Of a DNA stretch of 26,476 nucleotides, positions 2,081-23,110 are shown piece after piece (the first letter of the stretch is position 1; every line of letters starts with the position of its first letter). The notes under the pieces were generated by a model that searched no databases, was not told the DNA's origin, and saw nothing but the letters and a program-made list of their open reading frames with translations. The position numbers and the translations under genes were made by a program. The stretch comes from a virus, in the IMG/VR virus record IMGVR_UViG_3300007516_000119, positions 1-26,476 of that record; one strand, 5' to 3'.

Positions 2081-2512
2081 TCAATTCTGCCCAGCGGCAA
2101 TACACACCTTTAGGGCTTGCTCGGTTCGGATGATGCCGGCCCGTAAGGCTCGATAATCCTGTCGAGCGGCTGGATCAAGCTCGGCCGTTTGCTCAACTCC
2201 AGCACCCACGCCGGCAGCTTCACCGGTGAACACAGCGGCAATGGTTCTGGTTTTGACGCGCAGCCCGCAACCAGCACCAGTATCAATACAGCGCTCAAAC
2301 GCAGCAGATTTTGTTTCAGCATCAGACATCTCCTGTTGTGCGTGCTTGTCAGCAACCCACAGCGCCAACGCGGCGTTGTCTGCCGTGGCTTTCTCGGTCG
2401 CTTGGTAGGCCAGCTCAGCTTCGGCTATTTGGAGGCCGTAGCGCACGCCGTTGGCCTGCCAGCCGGCAATCACGCCGATGGCAAGCGCCCCCGCGATGAC
2501 GTACAGGTTCAA
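2081..2512 (-). CDS. Inner-membrane spanin, Rz-like
   Basis: This encodes a protein of 143 residues starting at a TTG whose bases overlap the endolysin stop. Residues 1-19 (from MNLYVIAGALAIGVIAGW) form one N-terminal membrane anchor. The remainder is an alanine- and glutamate-rich periplasmic helix (about residues 25-75) typical of Rz coiled coils. Two or three cysteines near residues 75-82 (CIDTGAGCG) could stabilise dimers. Together with the lipoprotein embedded in another frame, it would bridge and fuse the two membranes at the final step of lysis. The position directly after the endolysin and the nested Rz1 strongly support the call. It lacks an obvious Rz Pfam signature, so the assignment rests on topology and context. 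Confidence 0.82.
   Translation of the reverse strand: MNLYVIAGALAIGVIAGWQANGVRYGLQIAEAELAYQATEKATADNAALALWVADKHAQQEMSDAETKSAAFERCIDTGAGCGLRVKTRTIAAVFTGEAAGVGAGVEQTAELDPAARQDYRALRAGIIRTEQALKVCIAAGQN
2110..2322 (-). CDS. Outer-membrane lipoprotein spanin, Rz1-like, nested in Rz
   Basis: This encodes a lipoprotein of 70 residues lying wholly inside the Rz gene in another frame. The ATG at 2322 is preceded by CAGGAGATGTCTG, a strong ribosome binding site, which decides this start over an upstream one that would add eleven residues. The signal sequence (SAVLILVLVAG, residues 10-20) ends in a lipobox, LVAG followed by Cys21. The mature part is short and proline-rich (KPEPLPLCSPVKLPAW), as in other Rz1 proteins. 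The lipid-modified cysteine would anchor it to the outer membrane facing Rz. The fully embedded Rz/Rz1 arrangement is the classical lambda-type architecture. Confidence 0.88.
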   Translation of the reverse strand: MLKQNLLRLSAVLILVLVAGCASKPEPLPLCSPVKLPAWVLELSKRPSLIQPLDRIIEPYGPASSEPSKP

Positions 2513-2991
2513 GATTCACGGCCAGACAGTTGCGCGCTGGTTAAGGTCGGCAGCGGCTCGGTCGGTACCATCACATCAGCAGGCCAACGGTAGCCGGTAA
2601 CGCGCGTCAGTGGGAACGCCTTGATGTTAACCGCGTCCCCTTGGTTGCCGCCCAGCACCAGCAGATTACCTGAGCTGTCGCGCCCAACCACAAACCCGAC
2701 GTGCCCGCCGCCTGCCCGCGTGAACACCACGACGCAACCAACAACAGGCTGCGCAAGCATCACGCCCCACTGTAGGTATGATTTGGCGCTTTCAAACCGA
2801 GTCGACCGGATTCCGGCGCGCTCAAGCATTGCGCCGACGAATGCCGCGCACCAAGGGGTAGCGTCATCTTTTATGCCGCCGCGCTTGATATCCCGCCACA
2901 TCTGCACAATGGCGGGATTGTTAGCCGTCCCCGGCAACTCTTGCATGCCGATCAACTTGCGCGAGTTTTGCAGCCACACAGGCTCAGTCAT
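2509..2991 (-). CDS. Endolysin, CHAP/NlpC-P60-like peptidoglycan hydrolase (TIGR02594 type)
   Basis: This encodes a protein of 160 residues that should cut the peptide part of peptidoglycan during lysis. The catalytic pattern is clear: Cys48 in TPWCAAFVGAML, His97 in GGGHVGFVVG and Asn116 in LGGNQGDAVNI, the Cys-His-Asn arrangement of small CHAP-like phage lysins. The N-terminus (WLQNSRKLIGMQELPG) matches the usual lead-in of the TIGR02594 family as I remember it. The start at 2991 overlaps the holin stop; the longer reading frame upstream is only holin sequence in another frame. There is no signal peptide, so release through the holin is expected. The stop overlaps the TTG start of Rz. Confidence 0.9.
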   Translation of the reverse strand: MTEPVWLQNSRKLIGMQELPGTANNPAIVQMWRDIKRGGIKDDATPWCAAFVGAMLERAGIRSTRFESAKSYLQWGVMLAQPVVGCVVVFTRAGGGHVGFVVGRDSSGNLLVLGGNQGDAVNIKAFPLTRVTGYRWPADVMVPTEPLPTLTSAQLSGRES

Positions 2992-3193
2992 TGGATGCCA
3001 CCTCTTGCTTGATGACGCGAGCCACGGCAGCGGCAGCAATCGTGATCGTTGATAGCGCGGCAAACACATGGGTCGGCACTAAGCCTTGCCACAGCGGAAG
3101 GGCTAGTTCCAGCGCGCCAAGTAGCACAGACAGAACAGCCAGGCGCACGGACCAAAGCCGGTGCGCCTGCTTTGCGTCGTCAATCAGTTTCAT
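2984..3193 (-). CDS. Holin (class II-like, two membrane segments)
   Basis: Read from the ATG at 3193, this gives a 69-residue protein beginning MKLIDDAKQAHRLWSVRLAV. I recognise this as a common Pseudomonas phage protein placed just before the endolysin. It has two hydrophobic segments, about residues 17-36 (RLAVLSVLLGALELALPLW) and 43-60 (VFAALSTITIAAAAVARVI), separated by a short loop, and a charged C-terminus. It would form the membrane lesion that lets the endolysin reach the wall. In this sequence the same frame continues upstream without a stop into another membrane protein (see 2984-3490). Independent translation from 3193 is therefore an inference from family size and from the ATGA layout that would exist with one G fewer. 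Confidence 0.75.
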   Translation of the reverse strand: MKLIDDAKQAHRLWSVRLAVLSVLLGALELALPLWQGLVPTHVFAALSTITIAAAAVARVIKQEVASND

Positions 3194-3490
3194 CGTGCCC
3201 CCCCCCAAAAACTGCATGATCTGCGGCCTCAATTGGTACAGCGCCCATAACGCAGCAGCACCAAAAAGCATGCCCTGCACCCGGAAGAACCCCAACTTAA
3301 TCATGTCGCCCTGCTCGGCCAGCCGCGCCTCGATCTGCGGCAGCCGCTCAACGGCAATTTCGACTTTAGTCAGCCGGTGCGGCGTCTCCTTGTGGGTGTC
3401 CTCCAGCACGGAAACCTGGTGGGATAGCGTGTGCACTCCCTGCTCAAGCGCGTTCAGTCTTGGCGGTATGCTGGTCATTTCTTCAGTCAT
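2984..3490 (-). CDS. Coiled-coil membrane protein read through into the holin (fused frame)
   Basis: The open frame of 168 residues contains two units that are usually separate. Residues 1-98 have an N-terminal coiled coil (PPRLNALEQGVHTLSHQVS and RLTKVEIAVERLPQIEARL) and one membrane segment near 73-90 (QGMLFGAAALWALYQL). Residues 100-168 are the complete holin. The join falls in FLGGGT, encoded by nine consecutive G bases. With eight Gs the upstream frame would end in TGA overlapping the holin ATG as ATGA, exactly like its neighbours. The start at 3490 has GAGG and AAGGA upstream. The upstream part may be a holin partner or antiholin; this is inferred from position and topology only. Whether the fusion is real or an indel is discussed as a finding. 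Confidence 0.6.
   Translation of the reverse strand: MTEEMTSIPPRLNALEQGVHTLSHQVSVLEDTHKETPHRLTKVEIAVERLPQIEARLAEQGDMIKLGFFRVQGMLFGAAALWALYQLRPQIMQFLGGGTMKLIDDAKQAHRLWSVRLAVLSVLLGALELALPLWQGLVPTHVFAALSTITIAAAAVARVIKQEVASND
3198..3206. repeat. Nine-base C/G homopolymer at the holin junction
   Basis: Nine C bases on the plus strand (nine G on the coding strand), followed by five A bases. The tract sits five bases upstream of the holin ATG on the coding strand and decides whether the upstream frame ends or reads through. Tracts like this are prone to slippage in replication, transcription and sequencing. Confidence 0.9.
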
Positions 3491-3506: not shown

Positions 3507-4994
3507 TTACTGTGGCAAAACTTCGTAACAGCCGCTCACCAAGAACTGAGCATCAGTAACGGCGGGGTAAGCCCCGTCATACTTCTTAACTCTGATGTAT
3601 GCCGTTCCCGGAACAGTTCTGCAAAAAAGCACAAAATCGTTGACTGTCTGCATCCCATTAACCGCCGCGCCAGCGCCAACAGGATTGCCCTGATTAACTG
3701 GCAGACCTACGCGAAGCTCTCCACTCCCTGAGCCGCTGTTTGTAATTTTAGCGTAAGCCGAAAACCAAACAGTGTTACCTATGCGCATAAACCGACCGGA
3801 TGAGTTAAACCCGCTGATAGAGCCAACGCTTGACGATATATTGGGCGTGTATGCTTGCCACTGGCCTGCCGGCGCTGCTGCGTTTGACATAACGTCCCCC
3901 CTCTGTAAGTGGTTTTTAAATATCAACCCCCAAGCGGTGAGGCTGCCGTCATTTCTTCTCATGCTGTTGTCATCATGCACACCCATACCGGGGATGTATG
4001 CAAACCACATGTGCCCGGTTATGCCGTTTAACTTCTCAAAGTTTGATACTTGCCAGCACCAGTCAACAAAATCGGCCATAAACGATTTCATGCGCTCGAA
4101 CTCTGCTGGGTTTACGGATGAAATCCCTGCATCAAGGTTCGCGTCGTATCTTCCTGCGTAGTTGTCAATCCCGCTTTCGTCAATAAATATACAAAACTGG
4201 CTTTTGTATTGCCACCACCACTGTGTTTCCTCGGCTAACCGCTGATTACGAAAGTTCGATTGCCCAAGCTGCGCGTAAAGATGCACGCCGATAATCATGC
4301 AAGGGTCAGCGGAGAATCGTGTGTCAGATGTGAGGGCACCAACAGCCCCGTTAAGGTTTTGGCCGAAAAATGGCGGGTTTACAACGATAGGTCCGGCAAA
4401 TCCTGCGCTACGCAGCGCCGACATATACGCCCCCATCGTTGATTGCCAGACAGCTACGTTGTTGACGTTGCCGCTGCCGTTCATGCCGTTAAGCTCGTTT
4501 GCTGGATTAATCCACACATAGGGATTTGATCCGTAGCGCGCAACAAGCTCTGACATAAAGGTCAAGGAAACAGATGCAGGAACAAAATCATTGCTGTTCT
4601 GTAGCTGCACCACCATGCCACGGCCTGTGGCGTCTGTAATGATCGCGTCAAGCATTTCAAGGTCTGAGGGGTACGATTGGCCATTTGTAGTGTCGAGGTA
4701 TGCTGCGGCTTTCATAATTGCCGGCTCTACACCCACACGGATTAGATTGGCCCCTTGCGTTTTGGCGATTGCGATTTGGGTTAAGTCGTAGCACCATCGA
4801 GCGAAATAAGTCGGTTCGGAAACACCAGACGCTTGACGCTTTGAGTTGTCACGGCCTATTTCTCGGTATAACCAATTAGCCCTGTTCTGCTCAAAACTTA
4901 CAAACAGGTAGTCAAACATCTGCACACCTTTAACGATAAATCTCTTACCGTCTGGGGCAATTATCTGCTTGCTTGGGCTGATCGTGAAGTTCAT
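3507..4994 (-). CDS. Tail-associated GH5-like glycoside hydrolase (probable depolymerase)
   Basis: This encodes a protein of 495 residues. Residues 1-360 look like a (beta/alpha)8 glycosidase of the GH5/cellulase type. The opening strand is IIAPDGKRFIVKGVQMFDY (11-29). Asn166-Glu167 in WINPANELNG would be the acid/base glutamate, and His238/Tyr240 in GVHLYAQ lie on strand 6. Glu273 in CIFIDESG would be the nucleophile, and Trp330 in GHMWFAY lies on strand 8. Residues 365-495 are a strand-rich, Gly/Ser-rich module ending in CYEVLPQ, plausibly a carbohydrate-binding or trimerising tail domain. The gene lies between the tail fibre and the lysis genes. With no secretion signal, it most likely rides on the virion and degrades a host surface polysaccharide, though an accessory non-virion role is possible. 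It looks AT-richer than the baseplate genes. The substrate cannot be told from sequence. Confidence 0.78.
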   Translation of the reverse strand: MNFTISPSKQIIAPDGKRFIVKGVQMFDYLFVSFEQNRANWLYREIGRDNSKRQASGVSEPTYFARWCYDLTQIAIAKTQGANLIRVGVEPAIMKAAAYLDTTNGQSYPSDLEMLDAIITDATGRGMVVQLQNSNDFVPASVSLTFMSELVARYGSNPYVWINPANELNGMNGSGNVNNVAVWQSTMGAYMSALRSAGFAGPIVVNPPFFGQNLNGAVGALTSDTRFSADPCMIIGVHLYAQLGQSNFRNQRLAEETQWWWQYKSQFCIFIDESGIDNYAGRYDANLDAGISSVNPAEFERMKSFMADFVDWCWQVSNFEKLNGITGHMWFAYIPGMGVHDDNSMRRNDGSLTAWGLIFKNHLQRGDVMSNAAAPAGQWQAYTPNISSSVGSISGFNSSGRFMRIGNTVWFSAYAKITNSGSGSGELRVGLPVNQGNPVGAGAAVNGMQTVNDFVLFCRTVPGTAYIRVKKYDGAYPAVTDAQFLVSGCYEVLPQ

Positions 4995-5152
4995 ACGATC
5001 ATCGGCGCTTGTTCGCCAACGACGAACTCAACACCTTCTGGAACTTCGACTAATATGTAGTTTTCTGGTGGTGTGAAGTCAGTCACACCGTCCCACATAA
5101 TTAAGTTATCCACGCACCCGGTGCTGCTCACTATGGCATATACCTTTTCCAT
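4991..5152 (-). CDS. Small protein between tail fibre and glycosidase (53 aa)
   Basis: This short gene encodes 53 residues beginning MEKVYAIVSS and ending EQAPMIV. The ATG at 5152 is preceded by AGGGG at a spacing of about eight bases, and its TGA overlaps the glycosidase start as ATGA. Both are strong signs of a real, coupled gene. The stretch NLIMWDGVTDFTPPENY resembles short proteins or domains found beside phage tail fibres that I remember with the pattern N-(I/V)-WDG----PP. It may help fibre assembly or be a small virion component. There is no membrane segment and one cysteine (Cys13). The identity is inferred from position and motif only. Confidence 0.78.
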   Translation of the reverse strand: MEKVYAIVSSTGCVDNLIMWDGVTDFTPPENYILVEVPEGVEFVVGEQAPMIV

Positions 5153-5162
5153 TTCTGCGCCC

Positions 5163-6110
5163 CTAGTATTTTATGATTGCTATGCCGGGTCCACCCACGG
5201 CACCCGCGCCAACTGTTGACGATCCGCGGCCTGCGCCACCGCTGCCGATCCGCCCATTATCCCCCGGCCCCATCGCACCATTGCCGCCAGCAGCACCAAA
5301 GGAAGTGCCGCCACCACTACCGCCAGTGGCACCGCCGACGCCGGACCCACCCCCACCGCCAGACGGATTCAGCGTGCCGCCCGAAGCAGTGCCGCCAGTC
5401 CCGCCGGCCCCAGTGGGGTTTGGCTGGCCTCCGCTGCCACCTAAGCAAGACATTCCGCTCATTGTGGACGTTCCGCCATTACCACCAGCGGCTCCAGCGG
5501 CTCCAGCGGCTCCAGCGGCACCAATAGTTACTGGGATTATTTGGTCTGGGGTAACTGCAACAACTAGGCGCGAATGCCCGCCGCCGCCGCCGCCGCCAGC
5601 TGTTTGCCCCGCAACACCATTGCCGCCACCACCACCACCACCGCCCCAAAGCTGAATGTCAAGGGAGTAAACGCCTGCCGGAACTGTAAAGTTTCCCGAT
5701 GAAGTAATTGAGGCGACGCCGCTGGCCCTGATGCTTGACGAAGGCCGCCAAGAAGCGGGACTGATGTCTGGCTGATTGCCGATATTGGCCGCGCCAAGGG
5801 ACAGATAAAGCGCCCCGCTGTACTGGGTTGCGCTGCCGATAAAGTATTCTTGCGCGGCGTTGTACTCGGGCACCCCCGCTTGGTGCAGGTATGCAAGAAG
5901 CTGGCCGTGCGCGTACATAGCGCCGTTGAAGTCCTGCAGCGTCGGCTGATCGGCGGGGCCGACAATCTGCCAACCGAGTTTGTAGTCGGGCGTGATCTGC
6001 GAAGTCAAATCGTCGGCCTGCGTTACTTCCCCGAAAAGAGTCCGGTTAGCGCCAGTCGCTTCGGACGCAAAAGCCTTTAAGTTGCCATTGAAGCGGTTGA
6101 TTTTTGCCAT
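5163..6110 (-). CDS. Tail fibre with glycine-rich (polyglycine-type) receptor-binding domain
   Basis: This encodes a protein of 315 residues. Residues 1-125 form the virion-attachment part (MAKINRFNGNLKAFASEA, then ALYLSLGAANIGNQPDISPASWRP, a motif common in fibres). Residues 130-155 are a strand-rich lead-in ending DIQLW. Residues 156-315 are very rich in glycine, with runs of eight (156-163) and seven (172-178) glycines, AAGAAGAAGG, and many GGxGG motifs, ending GGPGIAIIKY. This matches the glycine-rich fibre domain family and recalls the polyglycine-II sandwich of S16-type adhesins, where loops between glycine strands recognise the receptor. The gene follows the last baseplate gene directly. 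Receptor binding is inferred from family knowledge. Confidence 0.85.
   Translation of the reverse strand: MAKINRFNGNLKAFASEATGANRTLFGEVTQADDLTSQITPDYKLGWQIVGPADQPTLQDFNGAMYAHGQLLAYLHQAGVPEYNAAQEYFIGSATQYSGALYLSLGAANIGNQPDISPASWRPSSSIRASGVASITSSGNFTVPAGVYSLDIQLWGGGGGGGGNGVAGQTAGGGGGGGHSRLVVAVTPDQIIPVTIGAAGAAGAAGAAGGNGGTSTMSGMSCLGGSGGQPNPTGAGGTGGTASGGTLNPSGGGGGSGVGGATGGSGGGTSFGAAGGNGAMGPGDNGRIGSGGAGRGSSTVGAGAVGGPGIAIIKY
5485..5520. repeat. Nine-base tandem repeat in the tail fibre gene
   Basis: Four copies of CCAGCGGCT (the last ending CCAGCGGCA) lie head to tail and encode the AAGAAGAAGG segment near residues 198-210 of the fibre. The unit is three codons, so copy-number change would lengthen or shorten the glycine-rich domain without breaking the frame. 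Confidence 0.85.
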
Positions 6111-6111
6111 G

Positions 6112-6828
6112 TCAGATCACCTTTCTTGCCAAGAAGCCGCCTTGGCGTGCCGGATTGAATTTGTCCGCGAAGCCGCGCGAAGCCGGGTTATTGCTGAGCC
6201 CGAACGTAGCACCAGGCTCGGCTTGTATTACGATTTTATAACGGACGCCTTGCGGTTTTGGCAGCAAGTTCAGAGCCCTGATCAGTCGCAGCCGGTCAAG
6301 GCTAACTGTCAGCGAGACGTACAGCGTAAGCGTCATGTCGAGATTATCGACGACGTAAGCCCGCCCGTCGAACGCCGCCAGGACCACGTCCTGGATTCCA
6401 ATGTAGGAGTCGCTCGACAGGTAAGCCGATGCGCGATTTAGCGACGCCTTGACTCGGATAAAGAACCTGTAGTCGGGATCGCCAAGTTGCAGGTCGGTGA
6501 ACGGAATTGAGAACTTATCGAAAAAGGGCGCGCCTACCCGCAGTGGGTTGAACTTGTCTGAAAAGCCTTTGCTATCAGGGTTGATGCTGAACCCGAAATA
6601 AACCTTTGGGACAACCGCAGGAACGTTACGGCTGATGCCGACGATGCGGCCCAGCACGTCAAGCTGCGCGCCGACGGCGTTGTCTAAGTCGAATGCCGGG
6701 TCAAGCGCGGCAAGAAACGCCCGCGTCTTCTCGTTGGCGGACGCGAGCAGCTCAATTTCGGCCTTGGCCTTGGGCATCTCCCAATACTGCTTGATCAGAA
6801 GGTTTGTGGTCTCTGTCAGCAGCGACAT
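6112..6828 (-). CDS. Baseplate wedge protein, DUF2612 family
   Basis: This encodes a protein of 238 residues. The ATG at 6828 overlaps the gp47-like stop as TGATG; a TTG one codon earlier is less likely. The N-terminus (LLIKQYWEMPKAKAEIELL and NAVGAQLDVLGRIVGISR) matches the DUF2612 family, which functions like P2 gpI in joining the baseplate to the fibre. Two similar segments occur: residues 78-104 (YFGFSINPDSKGFSDKFNP...) and 208-237 (TFGLSNNPASRGFADKFNP...), suggesting an internal duplication. Position between the gp47-like protein and the tail fibre agrees with the role. Confidence in the family is good; the meaning of the duplication is open. Confidence 0.85.
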   Translation of the reverse strand: MSLLTETTNLLIKQYWEMPKAKAEIELLASANEKTRAFLAALDPAFDLDNAVGAQLDVLGRIVGISRNVPAVVPKVYFGFSINPDSKGFSDKFNPLRVGAPFFDKFSIPFTDLQLGDPDYRFFIRVKASLNRASAYLSSDSYIGIQDVVLAAFDGRAYVVDNLDMTLTLYVSLTVSLDRLRLIRALNLLPKPQGVRYKIVIQAEPGATFGLSNNPASRGFADKFNPARQGGFLARKVI

Positions 6829-8006
6829 CAAATCACCTCGGTGACAGTGATGTTAGCGACGACAATCGTGAACTTAGCGCCGGGGGCAGGAGCTATCCGC
6901 CCGGCCACAAATGTGACGTTGTTGGCGCTCACTAAAAGATTGGTCAGCACGAACGAGTCGCCCGCCAGATATGCCGGGGCGTACAAGAACCCGGCTTGCA
7001 GCGGCGTGCCGATGTAAAATTTATAAGCAGCGATCTGCTGCTTGATCAGCGCAAGATCGACAGGGACAAGCGGGTCTTTTCGGGTTGCGGTGACGGTGAC
7101 GTAGACGGGCGTGTATACCGGGCGCGCGAAACGGCGCACTTGCGTAACGATGAACGTGCTGCCGTCCGGGCGAGTCAGCGTCTCCGGAAGAAGAACCTCT
7201 ATATCACCCTTGATGCCGGTGCCACCTGTTTTTTGGAACAGCAGCGCTTGCCCTATGTTGCTGACGGTACCGCCCTCGACCACAGGCCAAATGCTGTGTG
7301 CGTTCAAATCCTCCACAGGATCGTAGATGTCAGAATCGTTGTCGTAAACAAAGGCGTCAGTGACGCCAGGCAGGTTTAGCAGTCGGGCAGCCAGCGCGGC
7401 AGTCGTCGAGAATGCGGGATTTTCGAGCGACAGATTGCGTTTCTGGACAAATTCCTCGTCGGTTTCTTCGTCTACCCCAACAACGGCATTTCCCAGCGCG
7501 GCGAAAGAAGCCACGCCCAGCACCACCGTGACCTGCGTGAAAGCCGCGCCCGTTAGGCCGACCACTGCGCCGAATGCGGACGCCGTAAACGTGATGACGG
7601 TAACGCCAAGCGGCAGCGTCACAGCCACGGTTAGTTGCCAGAGCTGGCCAAGGTCGTCACTGATCTGATAGCCGATTGGCAGCGTCAAGATTCGGGTGGT
7701 GGTTATCTGCAAATCCCAAGTTGACCGGGTAGTCGGGCGCGGGAACACACCAGAAAGTTTGGCGATTTTCGCTTGGAAAAGACCGCGGGCAAAATCAGGG
7801 TCAAAGTTGTTGGCCATCGCAAGCCCGAACGCCTGCATGTCATGTCGGCCCTTGGCCTCAATGGCGATACGCTGGCCGTCTGGGCTTTCCTGAGTAACGA
7901 TGATATCCGCGCCGTAGATCGCTTTGTAGCCATCAACCAGCTCGCCGAATATCTCGTCAAAGGACTGGATCGTTATCCCGCTGGCATCAATCGTTGGCCC
8001 TGGCAT
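6828..8006 (-). CDS. Baseplate J/gp47-like wedge protein
   Basis: This encodes a protein of 392 residues that forms the baseplate wedge with the W/gp25-like protein. The N-terminus (ITIQSFDEIFGELVDGYKAIYG, then QESPDGQRIAIEAKG) is the usual start of the Mu gp47/P2 J family. The central part includes GVDEETDEEFVQKRNLSL and LLNLPGVTDAFVYDN, hallmark segments of the family in which the E-rich loop precedes a helix and a strand. The ATG overlaps the upstream stop as TAATG and its own stop overlaps the DUF2612 gene. The length is usual for the family. It sits in the expected order spike, W, J, I-like, fibre. Confidence 0.92.
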   Translation of the reverse strand: MPGPTIDASGITIQSFDEIFGELVDGYKAIYGADIIVTQESPDGQRIAIEAKGRHDMQAFGLAMANNFDPDFARGLFQAKIAKLSGVFPRPTTRSTWDLQITTTRILTLPIGYQISDDLGQLWQLTVAVTLPLGVTVITFTASAFGAVVGLTGAAFTQVTVVLGVASFAALGNAVVGVDEETDEEFVQKRNLSLENPAFSTTAALAARLLNLPGVTDAFVYDNDSDIYDPVEDLNAHSIWPVVEGGTVSNIGQALLFQKTGGTGIKGDIEVLLPETLTRPDGSTFIVTQVRRFARPVYTPVYVTVTATRKDPLVPVDLALIKQQIAAYKFYIGTPLQAGFLYAPAYLAGDSFVLTNLLVSANNVTFVAGRIAPAPGAKFTIVVANITVTEVI

Positions 8007-10172: not shown

Positions 10173-10964
10173 CTATCTCCCCGTGAGCGCGGTAAGCAAA
10201 GATTTTTGCTTTTTAGCGCCTGCAGCAGCACCAGAAGTCGCGCCCGATGTCGGTGACTGCACGCCCTTGTCGGACACGCCCCCGACTTGAGAGGCCACGG
10301 CAGGGGCTGGTTTTTGGTAGAACTCAGACACATCGCTGAACAGCGTTTTGCCGATGCGGAATTTTTGGGCCGTCAGCGTGAACGACAGTGCGTTTCGTTG
10401 ATTGTCGCGCGTGATGGTGACCGAGTTGATGGCCATGCTTTCGTGCGTGCGGAATGGCATGCTGATGGTGACAAGCTGTTTGCCGTAGTGGATAGACTCG
10501 ATAAAGTCAACGAACTGCTCGCGGACCGATTTGCCGCCGCCCCCGCCGCTGGTTAGCCGGGCAGAGTTAGCGCGCCCAGCCTGGAAGGCAGCACTGATTG
10601 CGCGGAAGCGGTCAGCGGCTGAGTTAACGACAGCGGCAACCCGGCGCGCCTGCGATGGCGTGCGGCGCGGCAGAAACGCCGTTACGACGCCGACGGCCGG
10701 CAATCGAGACTGTGAAGCGCTGACCGGTGCCGGAGGGATGAACACATCCGCAACGTCGCCGCTGATGCTGATTTTGATCGGACCGTTAATCAGGCTGTCG
10801 CCGATATAACTGCCGTCTTCAACCGTCTCCGTAGGTGACTGCGTTTCGTAGGCCGTCGAGTCATTGATGCGAGCAAACAACGTAAAGCCGCCAATGCCAA
10901 CTTCTTGCGCGCTACTACTGTCTAGCGCTTCACTCTGGCCGCTCTTATATGCCTGATAGCTCAT
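10173..10964 (-). CDS. Dit-like distal tail/baseplate protein
   Basis: This encodes a protein of 263 residues following the tape measure, the normal place for the distal tail protein. The C-terminal half has SVREQFVDFIESIHYGKQLVTI and then MAINSVTITRDNQRNALSFTLTAQKFRI, which I associate with Dit-like baseplate proteins of myoviruses (a clustering of strands carrying IT-D). The middle is Ala/Arg-rich and the C-terminus low in complexity (SPTSGATSGAAAGAKK). It would connect the end of the tube to the hub and wedges. The start overlaps the tape-measure stop as TAATG. The family call is plausible but not certain; structural prediction would settle it. Confidence 0.68.
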   Translation of the reverse strand: MSYQAYKSGQSEALDSSSAQEVGIGGFTLFARINDSTAYETQSPTETVEDGSYIGDSLINGPIKISISGDVADVFIPPAPVSASQSRLPAVGVVTAFLPRRTPSQARRVAAVVNSAADRFRAISAAFQAGRANSARLTSGGGGGKSVREQFVDFIESIHYGKQLVTISMPFRTHESMAINSVTITRDNQRNALSFTLTAQKFRIGKTLFSDVSEFYQKPAPAVASQVGGVSDKGVQSPTSGATSGAAAGAKKQKSLLTALTGR

Positions 10965-12577
10965 TATCGACCGCCTCGGTTAACTTGCGTCTTGGCCGTT
11001 TTCAATTGGTCCTGCAGCGCATTATTCACTGCGGCCCCTGCCGCCTGCGGGTCATTGCTGCTAACGTTGATCTGCACCTGTTGCTCTATGCTGCTGTTGC
11101 TTGTGCTGTTGCTGTTGTTGGTAGCACCCATCGCAATCGCACCGTTTGGCGTTATTGGCGCGGCAGCACCGTCCAGCCCAGGAGAGCCGGCTAAGCCATC
11201 CGCGCCAGAAGCGCCAGAAGTGCCAGAAGTGCCAGAAGTGCCAGAAGTGCCACCCCTAACAAAACTCAGCGCCCAGTCGGGCAAAATGGAGCTGATACCG
11301 CCCGCAATCGCGGAAAGAATGCCAGCCCATGCCGACGACAGAAAATCGAACAGCCCGCCGAAAACGCCTTTGATGCCATCAATCCAGGACGAAAACGCCG
11401 ACGAAAGCGAACTCAAAGCGCCGGAAAAGTCACCACTGAACAACTGCACGGCGGCGTCAAAAAGCAGGCCGATCGCTTGGAAGAATGGCCCTATGATATC
11501 CATCACGGCAACCACCATCCCGTTGAAAGCATCGACGATGCCGTGCATGACCGGAACAATATCAATGCCAAAGAACTCTTGGAAGAAATCGGCGATTACC
11601 GACTGGCCTCCGGTGAACGCCGTTATCAGGTCATCCACCACAAGGAGGAGCGCAACGATCCCCAGGGTGATCAGGACAACCGGCGATAGGAGAATGCCCA
11701 TCACAGTGGCCAGCCCGCCAGTCGCCAACCACGCCACCCCGAAGGCCGCCGCAACTGCCAAAGCGATGGGGGCCATTCGCTCCATAAAGCCCATCGTGGA
11801 CATGAGCACTTCGCCCAGCACGACAAGGCCGCTTTCGATCAGCTTGTGATTGGTTTCGAGGAACCCTACAAACTTGTCAGTGAGCGCGGTCATCGCGGGC
11901 GCGAAGCCTACAGCCACAGTGTTCTGAATGCCCTGCATGCCGAAGTTGAGCGTTGTCAGCGAGTCGTTGAACGCGGCAGCGGCATTGGCCTGCTCGGTCG
12001 ATACAACGCCAAGCCCGCGCGCTTTGGCGGTCAGCTTGCCCAGCTCTTCCGACGACAGCGAAAGGGTCTGTAGCATCGACTGATTGATACCCATCTTGTC
12101 GAGGATGTTGGTTTTCTGGGCAAGGCTCATGCCTTGCATTTTGTCGGCAAGCTCCAGCATCACCGCGTCCGCGCCTTTGATCTGGCCAGTTGCGTCGGTC
12201 ATGCTCAAGCCTAAAGCTTCGATGGTGTTCTTGGCTGGGCCTCCGCCTTCGCTGACGAACTCGCCCATGCGCTTATTCAGCTCAAGCATTGACGACGACA
12301 CGGCGTCCAAACTGGAGCCGTTGACCGATGCCGCAAAACCCAATTCTTGGATGCGCTCAACCGCCACGCCTGTCTCGCGGTTGAGCTGCGCCAGGGGGTC
12401 GATGGTGTTAAGGACGCCAGCAGTCCACGCGAAGAAACCACCTGCAGCGACGGCAAGCGCGGTACTTGCCCCCGCCAGCAGGCCGACGGACATTTTCAGG
12501 TTGGAGTTGAAACTCTCCTGCGGCGTCAGCGACCCGATAAAGCTGAATCTCGTAACCAGTTCGCTAACGACCGCCAT
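10964..12577 (-). CDS. Tail tape measure protein with collagen-like segment
   Basis: This encodes a protein of 537 residues, short for a tape measure, that sets tail length and may enter the host membrane. The N-terminal 230 residues are helical (MSVGLLAGASTALAVAAGGFFAW, RIQELGFAASVNGSSLDAVSSSM), like the TP901-type core. A hydrophobic stretch near 270-325 (APIALAVAAAFGVAWL, MGILLSPVVLITLG) has several potential membrane segments. Around residues 443-472 is a run of about ten uninterrupted Gly-X-Y triplets (GTSGTSGTSGTSGASGADG, then LAGSPGLDG), followed by an Asn/Ser-rich linker and a helical C-terminus. Order after the frameshifted chaperone genes and before the Dit-like gene is diagnostic. 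At about 0.15 nm per residue the tail would be near 80 nm. Confidence 0.9.
   Translation of the reverse strand: MAVVSELVTRFSFIGSLTPQESFNSNLKMSVGLLAGASTALAVAAGGFFAWTAGVLNTIDPLAQLNRETGVAVERIQELGFAASVNGSSLDAVSSSMLELNKRMGEFVSEGGGPAKNTIEALGLSMTDATGQIKGADAVMLELADKMQGMSLAQKTNILDKMGINQSMLQTLSLSSEELGKLTAKARGLGVVSTEQANAAAAFNDSLTTLNFGMQGIQNTVAVGFAPAMTALTDKFVGFLETNHKLIESGLVVLGEVLMSTMGFMERMAPIALAVAAAFGVAWLATGGLATVMGILLSPVVLITLGIVALLLVVDDLITAFTGGQSVIADFFQEFFGIDIVPVMHGIVDAFNGMVVAVMDIIGPFFQAIGLLFDAAVQLFSGDFSGALSSLSSAFSSWIDGIKGVFGGLFDFLSSAWAGILSAIAGGISSILPDWALSFVRGGTSGTSGTSGTSGASGADGLAGSPGLDGAAAPITPNGAIAMGATNNSNSTSNSSIEQQVQINVSSNDPQAAGAAVNNALQDQLKTAKTQVNRGGR
11202..11246. repeat. Nine-base tandem repeat in the tape measure gene
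   Basis: Five copies of a nine-base unit (two GCGCCAGAA, three GTGCCAGAA on the plus strand), then a partial copy. On the coding strand they encode the collagen-like Gly-Thr/Ala-Ser triplets of the tape measure. Copy-number change would keep the frame. Confidence 0.9.
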
Positions 12578-20472: not shown

Positions 20473-21686
20473 TCGTCACCTTCCGCGCCGAACACCGCTG
20501 ACCACGGGTCATCCTTCACAATATCGTGTTCCTTGAGGTAAAGCCGATAGTCCTCTCCCAGCCCGGCCAACTTGACCGCGTTGTCAATGGCCTTGGTCTC
20601 GAAGTCCAGCCGCTCAAGCGCGGTGCCACCTTGGTTTTCCTTAAAGGCCGCACCCTCGATACCGAACACGCGGCACAGCTGGTCAATCGGCTCGGCCAGG
20701 TGGTCGAACTGCAAAGCCTCGGTCATGTCTTGGAACGACTGACGCTCTTGCGACCCTGTGCTGTTCAAGCCGCCGACGGACTCACCAACGAGGATCGGCA
20801 GCGGAATAGAGGTGACCATGGCCAAGCGGCGCAGAGTGATGTTGTCCACGTCTGCAAGGTTGGTCAGCGCCTGGGTCACCGCGAGCACATCGTCCTCAGC
20901 GTCAATGATGCCGTCGCCGTAGATGCTGCGCAGGTCGGCCAGCTTGCTGTAGTACTCGACTAGCGCGTCGTCATCACCACAAGCTATACGGTCCTTAAAC
21001 CCTTTGACCTTGTGAAACATCACCGCGTTTTTTTCGACGATAGTGGCCGACGCACGCTCTACCACGCCGTCATTGATAAGCTGGTTATGGATCAGCTCAA
21101 ACTCGCTGACGCCGCCGTATTGGTACAGCGGCAAGTCCTGCTCGGCAGGCATGTGATAAACGAAGTCGATGACGCGCGAGTGGTGCAAGAGCGCGCCGTT
21201 CACAACGTAGGATGCAGGGCGCTGGTAACGCTCGTCGCTCAGGTCACGACCAGCGCCAACAGCGGTGACCATATCGCCGCTGAACACGTCAAGCTTCACG
21301 CGGCTCAGGTCGAAGCCTTTCGCGGGTGCTGAGTGGTTAGCGCCGCGCTCATTAATCAGGATGATGCCGCGACCAAACCCGAGCATGAACTTGGCGGCCT
21401 TTTTGACCGCGCGCTGCAGCTTCTGGTTATACAGAGCCTCGCCTTGGCCCTCAAATTGCAGAGTGCCATTCAGCGCATACGCCGCTTTGATGCGGATGAT
21501 TTTCGAGCCTAGGCCGCTACGATATATGGCGCGCAGCTGCTCAGGATGAATTTGGCGGGCCGTGATGATGTTTGCGGCCTCAGCGCTGCGGCGGTTTGCC
21601 AGCTTGTTGACGATGTTGGTCAAGCCATCAGTGTGACTAGTCCGCCCTTTAGCTGCTCTCGGCTGGGGTTTCGCTCTGCGGCTCAT
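20469..21686 (-). CDS. Portal protein, DUF1073 family
   Basis: This encodes a protein of 405 residues located between large terminase and the Mu F-like gene, the portal position. It contains ARQIHPEQLRAIYRSGLGSKII, ALYNQKLQRAVKKAAKFMLGFGRG, the family segment SYVVNGALLHHSRVIDFVYHMP, and RRLAMVTSIPLPILVGESVGGLNSTG, typical of DUF1073 portals. Twelve copies would form the ring through which DNA enters and leaves. Databases sometimes label this family after Acb1, the anti-CBASS nuclease; I see none of the two HxT motifs that Acb1 requires. Overlaps terminase by an ATGA. Confidence 0.88.
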   Translation of the reverse strand: MSRRAKPQPRAAKGRTSHTDGLTNIVNKLANRRSAEAANIITARQIHPEQLRAIYRSGLGSKIIRIKAAYALNGTLQFEGQGEALYNQKLQRAVKKAAKFMLGFGRGIILINERGANHSAPAKGFDLSRVKLDVFSGDMVTAVGAGRDLSDERYQRPASYVVNGALLHHSRVIDFVYHMPAEQDLPLYQYGGVSEFELIHNQLINDGVVERASATIVEKNAVMFHKVKGFKDRIACGDDDALVEYYSKLADLRSIYGDGIIDAEDDVLAVTQALTNLADVDNITLRRLAMVTSIPLPILVGESVGGLNSTGSQERQSFQDMTEALQFDHLAEPIDQLCRVFGIEGAAFKENQGGTALERLDFETKAIDNAVKLAGLGEDYRLYLKEHDIVKDDPWSAVFGAEGDE

Positions 21687-23110
21687 AGCAATGCCTTGTA
21701 GTCAATAGTTCGTTTTGAAAGTATATCTTGTATTGCGTCCATTGTCGGGTCGACCTGATCATCGTGTGCGCCGTTCGGAAACGCGGCAAACTCAGACAGG
21801 TAATCCGACAGCCAAGGCGCGGACGCCGGCAGCAAGACATTTCCCGATTGCATTAAAGGCGAGGCGTCATTTGCCCTGGTGATCTTGTCGACACTGCGCG
21901 GTATGCCAATAATCGGCACGCCCTCGCGCTTGAGCGTCTGTATCAGGCCGGTGCCGCTGGCCTTATCCTCAACCTTGAATGCACGAAGCGTGCCATTATT
22001 ATCAGCCTTGTGCTTGGCCCAGAAAGCGCGCGCCTGAATCTGCAGCTCAGGAGCCTCCCACTTGCCGCGAATTTGGTCGATCATAACGGCCTGCCCATCA
22101 TACGACTCGCCCCAGCACTGGAAAACACTGTAGTCGTTCTGCTCCTTGGTTTTCATGGCGGTGTCGCCGTAGATTGCCCGCCACTTGAGGCGCGGCATTA
22201 CGGTGTAATAGCGCCACCACTCAGCCTTGAAAAGGTTGCCGCCAGCCGCCACAGGCATTTGCTGATAGAGTGCTTCCCAGTTGTCCGAGGACATAATGCT
22301 TTTTCTTTCTAGCAGAAATTCAATAGATTTATGCTCTGGAAATAAAGCCTCGCCTGCCTTTCTGTGTTTTTCGTCGACTATGGCTATAGCTGGATAGGTA
22401 AGCACTTTAAGGCCTGGGTATTTTTGTATCAGTCGACCAATTGGGTCATCCAAGTGCCATCGCGTCAATATGCAAAGCAGCGCGCCTGTTTCGCTAAATC
22501 GCGTAAAGAAGTCGTCAGTTAGCCAGTCCCATGCGCCGTTTCGAATTGCCTCGCTGTTTGCGTCCTTGCGACCGCGTATAGGGTCATCAATCACGCCCAG
22601 GTCAAGAGACTCGCCAGTGATTGACCCGCGAACTGTCGTATTACGGAAAAAGCCAGTAGTCCCCGCATACTCAAGGATTTCTCGGTTTCTCATCACTTGG
22701 CCCGATACCGTTACAGAGTTTGACTCGTTAATGCGCGTGCCCGGGAATATCTCTTTGTAAATATCGGAGTCGTAAAGCCGTTGTAATTTTAGATTTGCGC
22801 GAATGCCGAGCCGCTCAGAAAAAGACGTGTAGATCGTTCTCAGATCAGGGTTTTGCCCTGCTACCCACGAAATAAAGTCAACAATCTGTACCGATTTGCC
22901 GTGCTGGGGGGCTGCCTGGATTACAAGTTTTGGGCGGCTTCCTGCGACCATTTCTTTGTAAAATGATTGAAGCTCAGCGCCAACTTCTTCCTGCCACCAG
23001 CCCCACTTATCTTTCGGGTTAATTGTTTTTCTGTAAGTGATAAAGCAAGCGCGGGCTTTTCTTATCCGCTGTTCTTTTAGCAGGGCAAAAATTTCATCGT
23101 TTGATGCCAT
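21683..23110 (-). CDS. terL: Terminase large subunit
   Basis: This encodes a protein of 475 residues, the DNA-packaging motor with ATPase and nuclease. The Walker A loop is AAPQHGKSV (66-74), Walker B is LGVIDDP (171-177) and the coupling motif is ILTRW (214-218). The nuclease has Asp316 in YGDTAM, Glu381-Asp382 in KVEDKASG and the aspartate pair 450-451 in GAHDDQVD, which fits an RNase H-like fold. Arrangement and length fit the psiM2-type/Terminase_6 large subunits. It overlaps the small subunit by 17 bases and the portal by four. The DNA for the ATPase half (22280-23110) looks AT-richer than the portal and head genes, hinting at mosaic exchange. Confidence 0.95.
   Translation of the reverse strand: MASNDEIFALLKEQRIRKARACFITYRKTINPKDKWGWWQEEVGAELQSFYKEMVAGSRPKLVIQAAPQHGKSVQIVDFISWVAGQNPDLRTIYTSFSERLGIRANLKLQRLYDSDIYKEIFPGTRINESNSVTVSGQVMRNREILEYAGTTGFFRNTTVRGSITGESLDLGVIDDPIRGRKDANSEAIRNGAWDWLTDDFFTRFSETGALLCILTRWHLDDPIGRLIQKYPGLKVLTYPAIAIVDEKHRKAGEALFPEHKSIEFLLERKSIMSSDNWEALYQQMPVAAGGNLFKAEWWRYYTVMPRLKWRAIYGDTAMKTKEQNDYSVFQCWGESYDGQAVMIDQIRGKWEAPELQIQARAFWAKHKADNNGTLRAFKVEDKASGTGLIQTLKREGVPIIGIPRSVDKITRANDASPLMQSGNVLLPASAPWLSDYLSEFAAFPNGAHDDQVDPTMDAIQDILSKRTIDYKALL

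Follow-up and report, generated by a model that had tools for sequence, protein, structure and literature searches.

The stretch of DNA analysed here (the window) is the 26,476-bp virus record IMGVR_UViG_3300007516_000119, a myovirus contig from an uncultivated contractile-tailed phage. Its minus strand encodes a terminase, portal, head proteins, sheath, tape measure, hub, baseplate J, a DUF2612 protein, a Gly-rich fibre, a GH5 glycosidase, a holin, a CHAP endolysin and Rz; the portal, the tape measure and some head genes were named by position or by eye. Within this minus-strand set, the DUF2612 baseplate protein and baseplate J (6112-8006; PF11041, PF04865 and comparison with relatives) are followed by the Gly-rich tail fibre P0002 (5163-6110; phrog_863, E 1.6e-33; PF21722), whose N-terminus is conserved in relatives, by the GH5 glycosidase gene P0001 (3507-4994; 495 aa) and by the lysis genes, a DUF7940 holin (2984-3490; phrog_1356 holin, PF25612), a CHAP-domain endolysin (2509-3069; PF05257) and an Rz-like spanin (2081-2512; phrog_2466). 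Searches with PADLOC and NCBIfam gave no match.

The first-pass annotation had placed the GH5 gene beside the tail fibre, and the tail region is indeed its setting, but the two genes are separated by a mini-ORF of 53 aa (4991-5152, minus strand) that is absent from an ORF list confined to products of at least 80 aa. The product resembles the N-terminus of tail-fibre-assembly proteins: phmmer matched it (E 7e-6) to a Caudo_TAP protein of a relative (L003, 10888-11406; PF02413, 36.6 bits), and fibre-assembly-like proteins of this kind come after the fibre in relatives. The TGA of the mini-ORF overlaps the ATG of the GH5 gene as ATGA, an arrangement usual in translational coupling. Such a fibre-assembly-like mini-ORF, placed before a GH5 gene and overlapping its start codon, is new here. 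Reading from the fibre stop codon, 10 bp precede the mini-ORF, the ATGA overlap leads into the GH5 gene and 16 bp separate the latter from the holin. The genes for the fibre, the enzyme and lysis have the look of a single operon, and the enzyme gene is located in the tail/late structural unit, between fibre and holin, as looked for in a virion depolymerase. GC3 is 0.52 in the mini-ORF, 0.54 in the GH5 gene and 0.59 in the fibre gene, compared with 0.66-0.77 in most other structural and lysis genes. Because GC3 is low in both, the mini-ORF and the GH5 gene appear to have been acquired together, and the pair looks like a swapped-in accessory module. The terminase gene (window positions 21683-23110) has a GC3 of 0.56, low for the contig and similar to that of the GH5 module.

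P0001 is a GH5 glycosidase of the cellulase/mannanase family, as had been proposed for positions 3507-4994. In a Pfam profile search it scored 46.1 bits against PF00150 (cut-off 23.5, E 5.9e-12), and a six-frame search of the window gave 47.6 bits. By phmmer against the PDB it matched the Thermomonospora beta-mannanase 1bqc (E 5.7e-6), with N166-E167 aligned to N127-E128. Profile A4, built from P0001, the viral relative L099 (IMGVR_UViG_3300031450_000204) and the Rhodococcus relative L002, matched 4fk9 and 1bqc at 2.7e-14 and placed E273 on E225 of 1bqc; E128 and E225 are the residues we take to be the catalytic pair of that enzyme. The predicted acid/base E167 (codon 4494-4496, minus strand) and the predicted nucleophile E273 (codon 4176-4178, minus strand) are both kept in L099, L002 and L023. 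The best solved relatives of P0001 are beta-mannanases; at below 25% identity, these PDB matches make the GH5_8-type mannanase subfamily no more than a candidate placement. P0001 is divergent, with 22-27% identity to its relatives. A tblastn search of 50,697 phage records with the whole protein found nothing at thresholds up to E 10, and an IMG/VR pattern search likewise gave no match.

The predicted structure agrees with this assignment. The AlphaFold model, based on an alignment of only three sequences, has a mean pLDDT of 48 and a pTM of 0.52 and is poor beyond residue 276, but the beta/alpha order is visible. Its top Foldseek matches are GH5 enzymes (E 8.9e-10), and VIA-align superimposed it on the GH5 mannanase 3wsu with a Z score of 20.2 (rmsd 3.3, 246 residues aligned), so that on this pLDDT 48 model both methods recover the (beta/alpha)8 barrel of GH5. 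The barrel domain spans residues ~1-365 (3900-4994, minus strand). E167 comes after strand 4 and E273 is part of strand 7, the arrangement of GH5 enzymes; that the two glutamates face each other in the pocket is predicted by homology. P0001 further keeps R86, N166, H238, Y240 and the strand-8 tryptophan W330; every residue named in the first-pass annotation is where it had been claimed, and the structural and catalytic-site comparisons it had called for both point to a GH5 barrel.

Two departures from the common pattern bear on whether this barrel is still an enzyme. P0001 has NEL in place of the common NEP, and the strand-3 histidine is absent (GMVVQLQNSND). Both departures, together with the divergence of the sequence, would fit a GH5 fold retained for glycan binding only, as a receptor-binding barrel without catalysis. 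We regard this as very unlikely, given that both glutamates and the five further residues listed above are kept, and that the histidine is likewise missing from L002 and from L099, which itself scores about 100 bits against PF00150. It is kept in L023 and in the GH5 protein of Klebsiella phage SopranoGao. A strand-3 histidine is conserved in many GH5 members, not in all, and is not decisive for membership.

To place the gene in its wider context we used relatives of the phage found through baseplate J: 20 IMG/VR contigs that share 49-75% identity, together with more distant ones down to about 42%. PF00150 was found in none of the records of 69 relatives, many of them fragmentary; since the closest phages are without the gene, infection does not generally require GH5. 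The CHAP lysin of one relative (L018, 12886-13365) is 70.6% identical to that of the window and the gene order is equal, which indicates that the flanks on both sides of the GH5 gene belong to one kind of phage. An integrase was searched for in 14 relatives and found in none.

Among the near relatives, the contents of the fibre-to-lysis slot vary, and most members have only assembly-like proteins there. In L013 (about 11282-12184) the slot encodes an SGNH/GDSL esterase (PF13472, 37.6 bits), and in L009 a beta-propeller. The L018 slot protein (about 11268-12128) looked by eye like a TIM-barrel glycosidase, but has a weak model that reached at best a VIA Z score of 8.6 against mixed barrel proteins; it gave no Pfam or PDB sequence match and no phage or viral relative, and no solved relatives were found for the L018 and L013 slot proteins. 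Other features of these loci were recorded in passing. The L013 esterase begins directly at its catalytic domain, as the GH5 protein does, and a second SGNH-like protein is encoded beyond the lysis genes of the same contig (14138-15505). The L018 protein has an alternating beta/alpha pattern and no more than weak matches to barrel hydrolases; the L005 slot protein (11299-12030) is transglutaminase/papain-like by eye and has no family match; and the L015 slot protein (11154-11666) differs from the others in having an evident signal peptide (MNKFIFLASLLLASFGANA). Among distant relatives, L061 encodes an acyltransferase shortly after the fibre genes (10408-11436; PF01757, 105 bits) that could modify host surface sugars, and L055 (8894-11002) and L051 (8893-10909) have at the fibre position a larger protein with weak CBM_5_12-like matches and, in L055, also a weak pectate-lyase-like match; this protein is perhaps a conventional tailspike.

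One reading of these loci, which we think improbable, would be an exchangeable cargo slot of this phage group whose free-standing, surface-active enzymes are tied to the tail not through fusion but through an adaptor resembling fibre-assembly proteins. It would cover the GH5 enzyme of the window, the L013 esterase, the possible L018 barrel and the transglutaminase-like L005 protein. If true, adaptor-docked slot enzymes would be a new way of arming a contractile tail. Whichever proteins it carries, the variable slot is a place to look for more surface-active phage enzymes.

How P0001 might reach its substrate depends on its two ends. The GH5 domain starts at residue 1, with the alignment to L099 and L002 running from residues 2-3, and an N-terminal virion anchor domain was looked for and not found. 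No signal peptide is evident by hydropathy, which over windows of 12 aa does not exceed 1.08 in the first 40 residues, compared with 2.51 in a slot protein with an evident signal. At the other end, the candidate attachment or binding module (residues ~376-495; 3510-3869, minus strand) is the beta-rich C-terminal module of the first-pass annotation: the last ~120 residues are beta-rich by sequence, but the model, with a pLDDT of about 25-40 there, does not confirm it. Searched alone, the module matched nothing among phages, IMG/VR viral contigs, PHROGs, Pfam and the proteins of the relatives. A motif scan for a tail-fibre-like pattern also gave nothing, and a resemblance of the module to tail fibres was dropped.

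The safest reading of P0001 is a late-expressed GH5 glycosidase whose target is a beta-glycan located outside the host. We consider it somewhat probable that it is, more specifically, a late-made GH5 endo-beta-glycosidase, probably tail-borne, that clears a host beta-linked polysaccharide. To judge from its operon, P0001 would be a late product, like the proteins of the fibre and of lysis; it would cut beta-linked chains, similar to mannan, glucomannan or cellulose, in the exopolysaccharide, capsule or biofilm matrix of the host; it would most likely be carried on the tail, through its C-terminal module or a fibre or assembly partner; and, carried there, it may clear the way to the receptor. 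The degradation of beta-linked host polysaccharide put forward in the first-pass annotation is thus kept in a qualified form, as a GH5 enzyme in a late tail/lysis operon that most likely acts on a beta-linked surface glycan. In favour of this reading are the GH5 matches, the operon, the absence of a signal-like hydrophobic start, the other surface-type cargo, such as the L013 esterase, that the fibre-lysis slot carries in relatives, and the precedents of L099, Erwinia phage S6 gp095 and SopranoGao gp18. Against tail attachment stand the N-terminus of P0001, which, unlike those of these three proteins, has no anchor, and the C-terminal module, which has no detectable relative and a low-confidence model.

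The same missing anchor, the 16 bp that join the gene to the holin in one unit with the lysis genes, and a C-terminal module that matches no virion module would all fit a soluble depolymerase, released with the progeny at lysis, that thins the matrix around neighbouring cells and aids spread. We think this rather unlikely: the gene also lies directly behind the fibre, overlapped by the fibre-assembly-like mini-ORF, and in other phages the GH5 domains, whether related or analogous, form part of structural proteins. Gene position favours a link to the tail over release at lysis, but a missing anchor speaks less for it.

A tail-borne enzyme has also to be weighed against a role away from the virion, which is possible because the best sequence relatives of P0001 are bacterial mannanases. 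P0001 could be the product of an auxiliary metabolic gene that helps the infected host to digest plant polymers such as glucomannan, a role consistent with beta-mannanases as its nearest solved structures and with two active viral enzymes, a soil-virus GH5 (Emerson et al. 2018) that, when expressed, acted as an endomannanase towards both glucomannan and galactomannan (PMC6786970) and a rumen viral GH5 active on CMC (PMC10465536). The soil enzyme, likened to P0001 by description, also comes from an uncultivated virus, but it was read as a metabolic gene, as was the rumen enzyme. For P0001 we judge such a role improbable, as the protein has no signal peptide-like segment, which makes the usual exit from a living host unlikely, and its gene belongs to the unit of late structural and lysis genes; a review moreover cautions that GH domains in viruses are often components of the virion which have wrongly been labelled metabolic (PMC12713726). 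Should P0001 prove to be a virion protein, it would point to a beta-glycan matrix as the barrier or first receptor of the uncultivated host, and it would be a viral carbohydrate enzyme not to be taken for a metabolic one.

The cellular enzymes nearest to P0001 are the Thermobifida/Streptomyces GH5 beta-mannanases (1bqc, 4fk9 and 3wsu), which give its best sequence and fold matches and whose catalytic glutamates align with its own. They are without the phage C-terminal module and are 17-20% identical to P0001 over the fold, a distance at which their substrate is not transferable.

Among phages, a TIM-barrel glycosidase is as unusual as the first-pass annotation had stated, TIM barrels making up 10 of the 984 phage depolymerase folds (1.0%) in DepoScope (PMC11326577). 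A GH5 enzyme in a phage tail region is, however, no novelty, and other phages are already known to clear polysaccharide with a differently built, only distantly related GH5 enzyme. The gp095 of Erwinia phage S6 (Schitoviridae) degrades carboxymethylcellulose and so acts on a beta-glucan found in the matrix of its host; S6 itself depends on cellulose of the bacterium (PMC9544554). Like P0001, it is a GH5 protein of the structural region, encoded behind structural genes and just upstream of holin, endolysin and Rz; S6, however, is a podophage, and gp095 has 782 aa, with anchor-type domains at the N-terminus and GH5 at the C-terminus, is paired with a GH48 enzyme and belongs to the E1-like GH5 lineage. 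For Klebsiella phage SopranoGao gp18 and the Lastavirus endoglucanases, also encoded in the tail gene region, degradation of host EPS has been proposed (PMC10052179). Gp18 scores 159 bits against PF00150 and has tblastn relatives in Klebsiella, Serratia, Erwinia and Pseudomonas phages; it differs from P0001 in its N-terminal Gp77 fibre-tail adaptor domain, its Ig-like domain and a C-terminus common to other tail fibres. P0001 gave no BLASTP match to gp095 or gp18 and is not placed in their family.

Closer to P0001 is L099, whose 995-aa protein (5015-8002) has its GH5 domain (100 bits) at the C-terminus, preceded by three FN3 domains, matches a minor-tail family in parts, adjoins the major head protein and lacks close relatives among phage records and in IMG/VR. 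Its GH5 domain is related to that of P0001 (27% identity, pairwise E 8e-9) and likewise has its PDB relatives on the mannanase side, but it follows a long N-terminal part, lies in a head-gene neighbourhood and is without the C-terminal module. P0001 extends the small number of TIM-barrel phage glycosidases by a second GH5 lineage, which is mannanase-like; its phage has a contractile tail, and the usual fused anchor is missing. Since the nearest PDB entries of gp18 are GH5 endoglucanases of the E1/CelE2 type, not mannanases, whereas P0001 and L099 side with the mannanases, the GH5 barrels of phages probably derive from two or more branches of the family.
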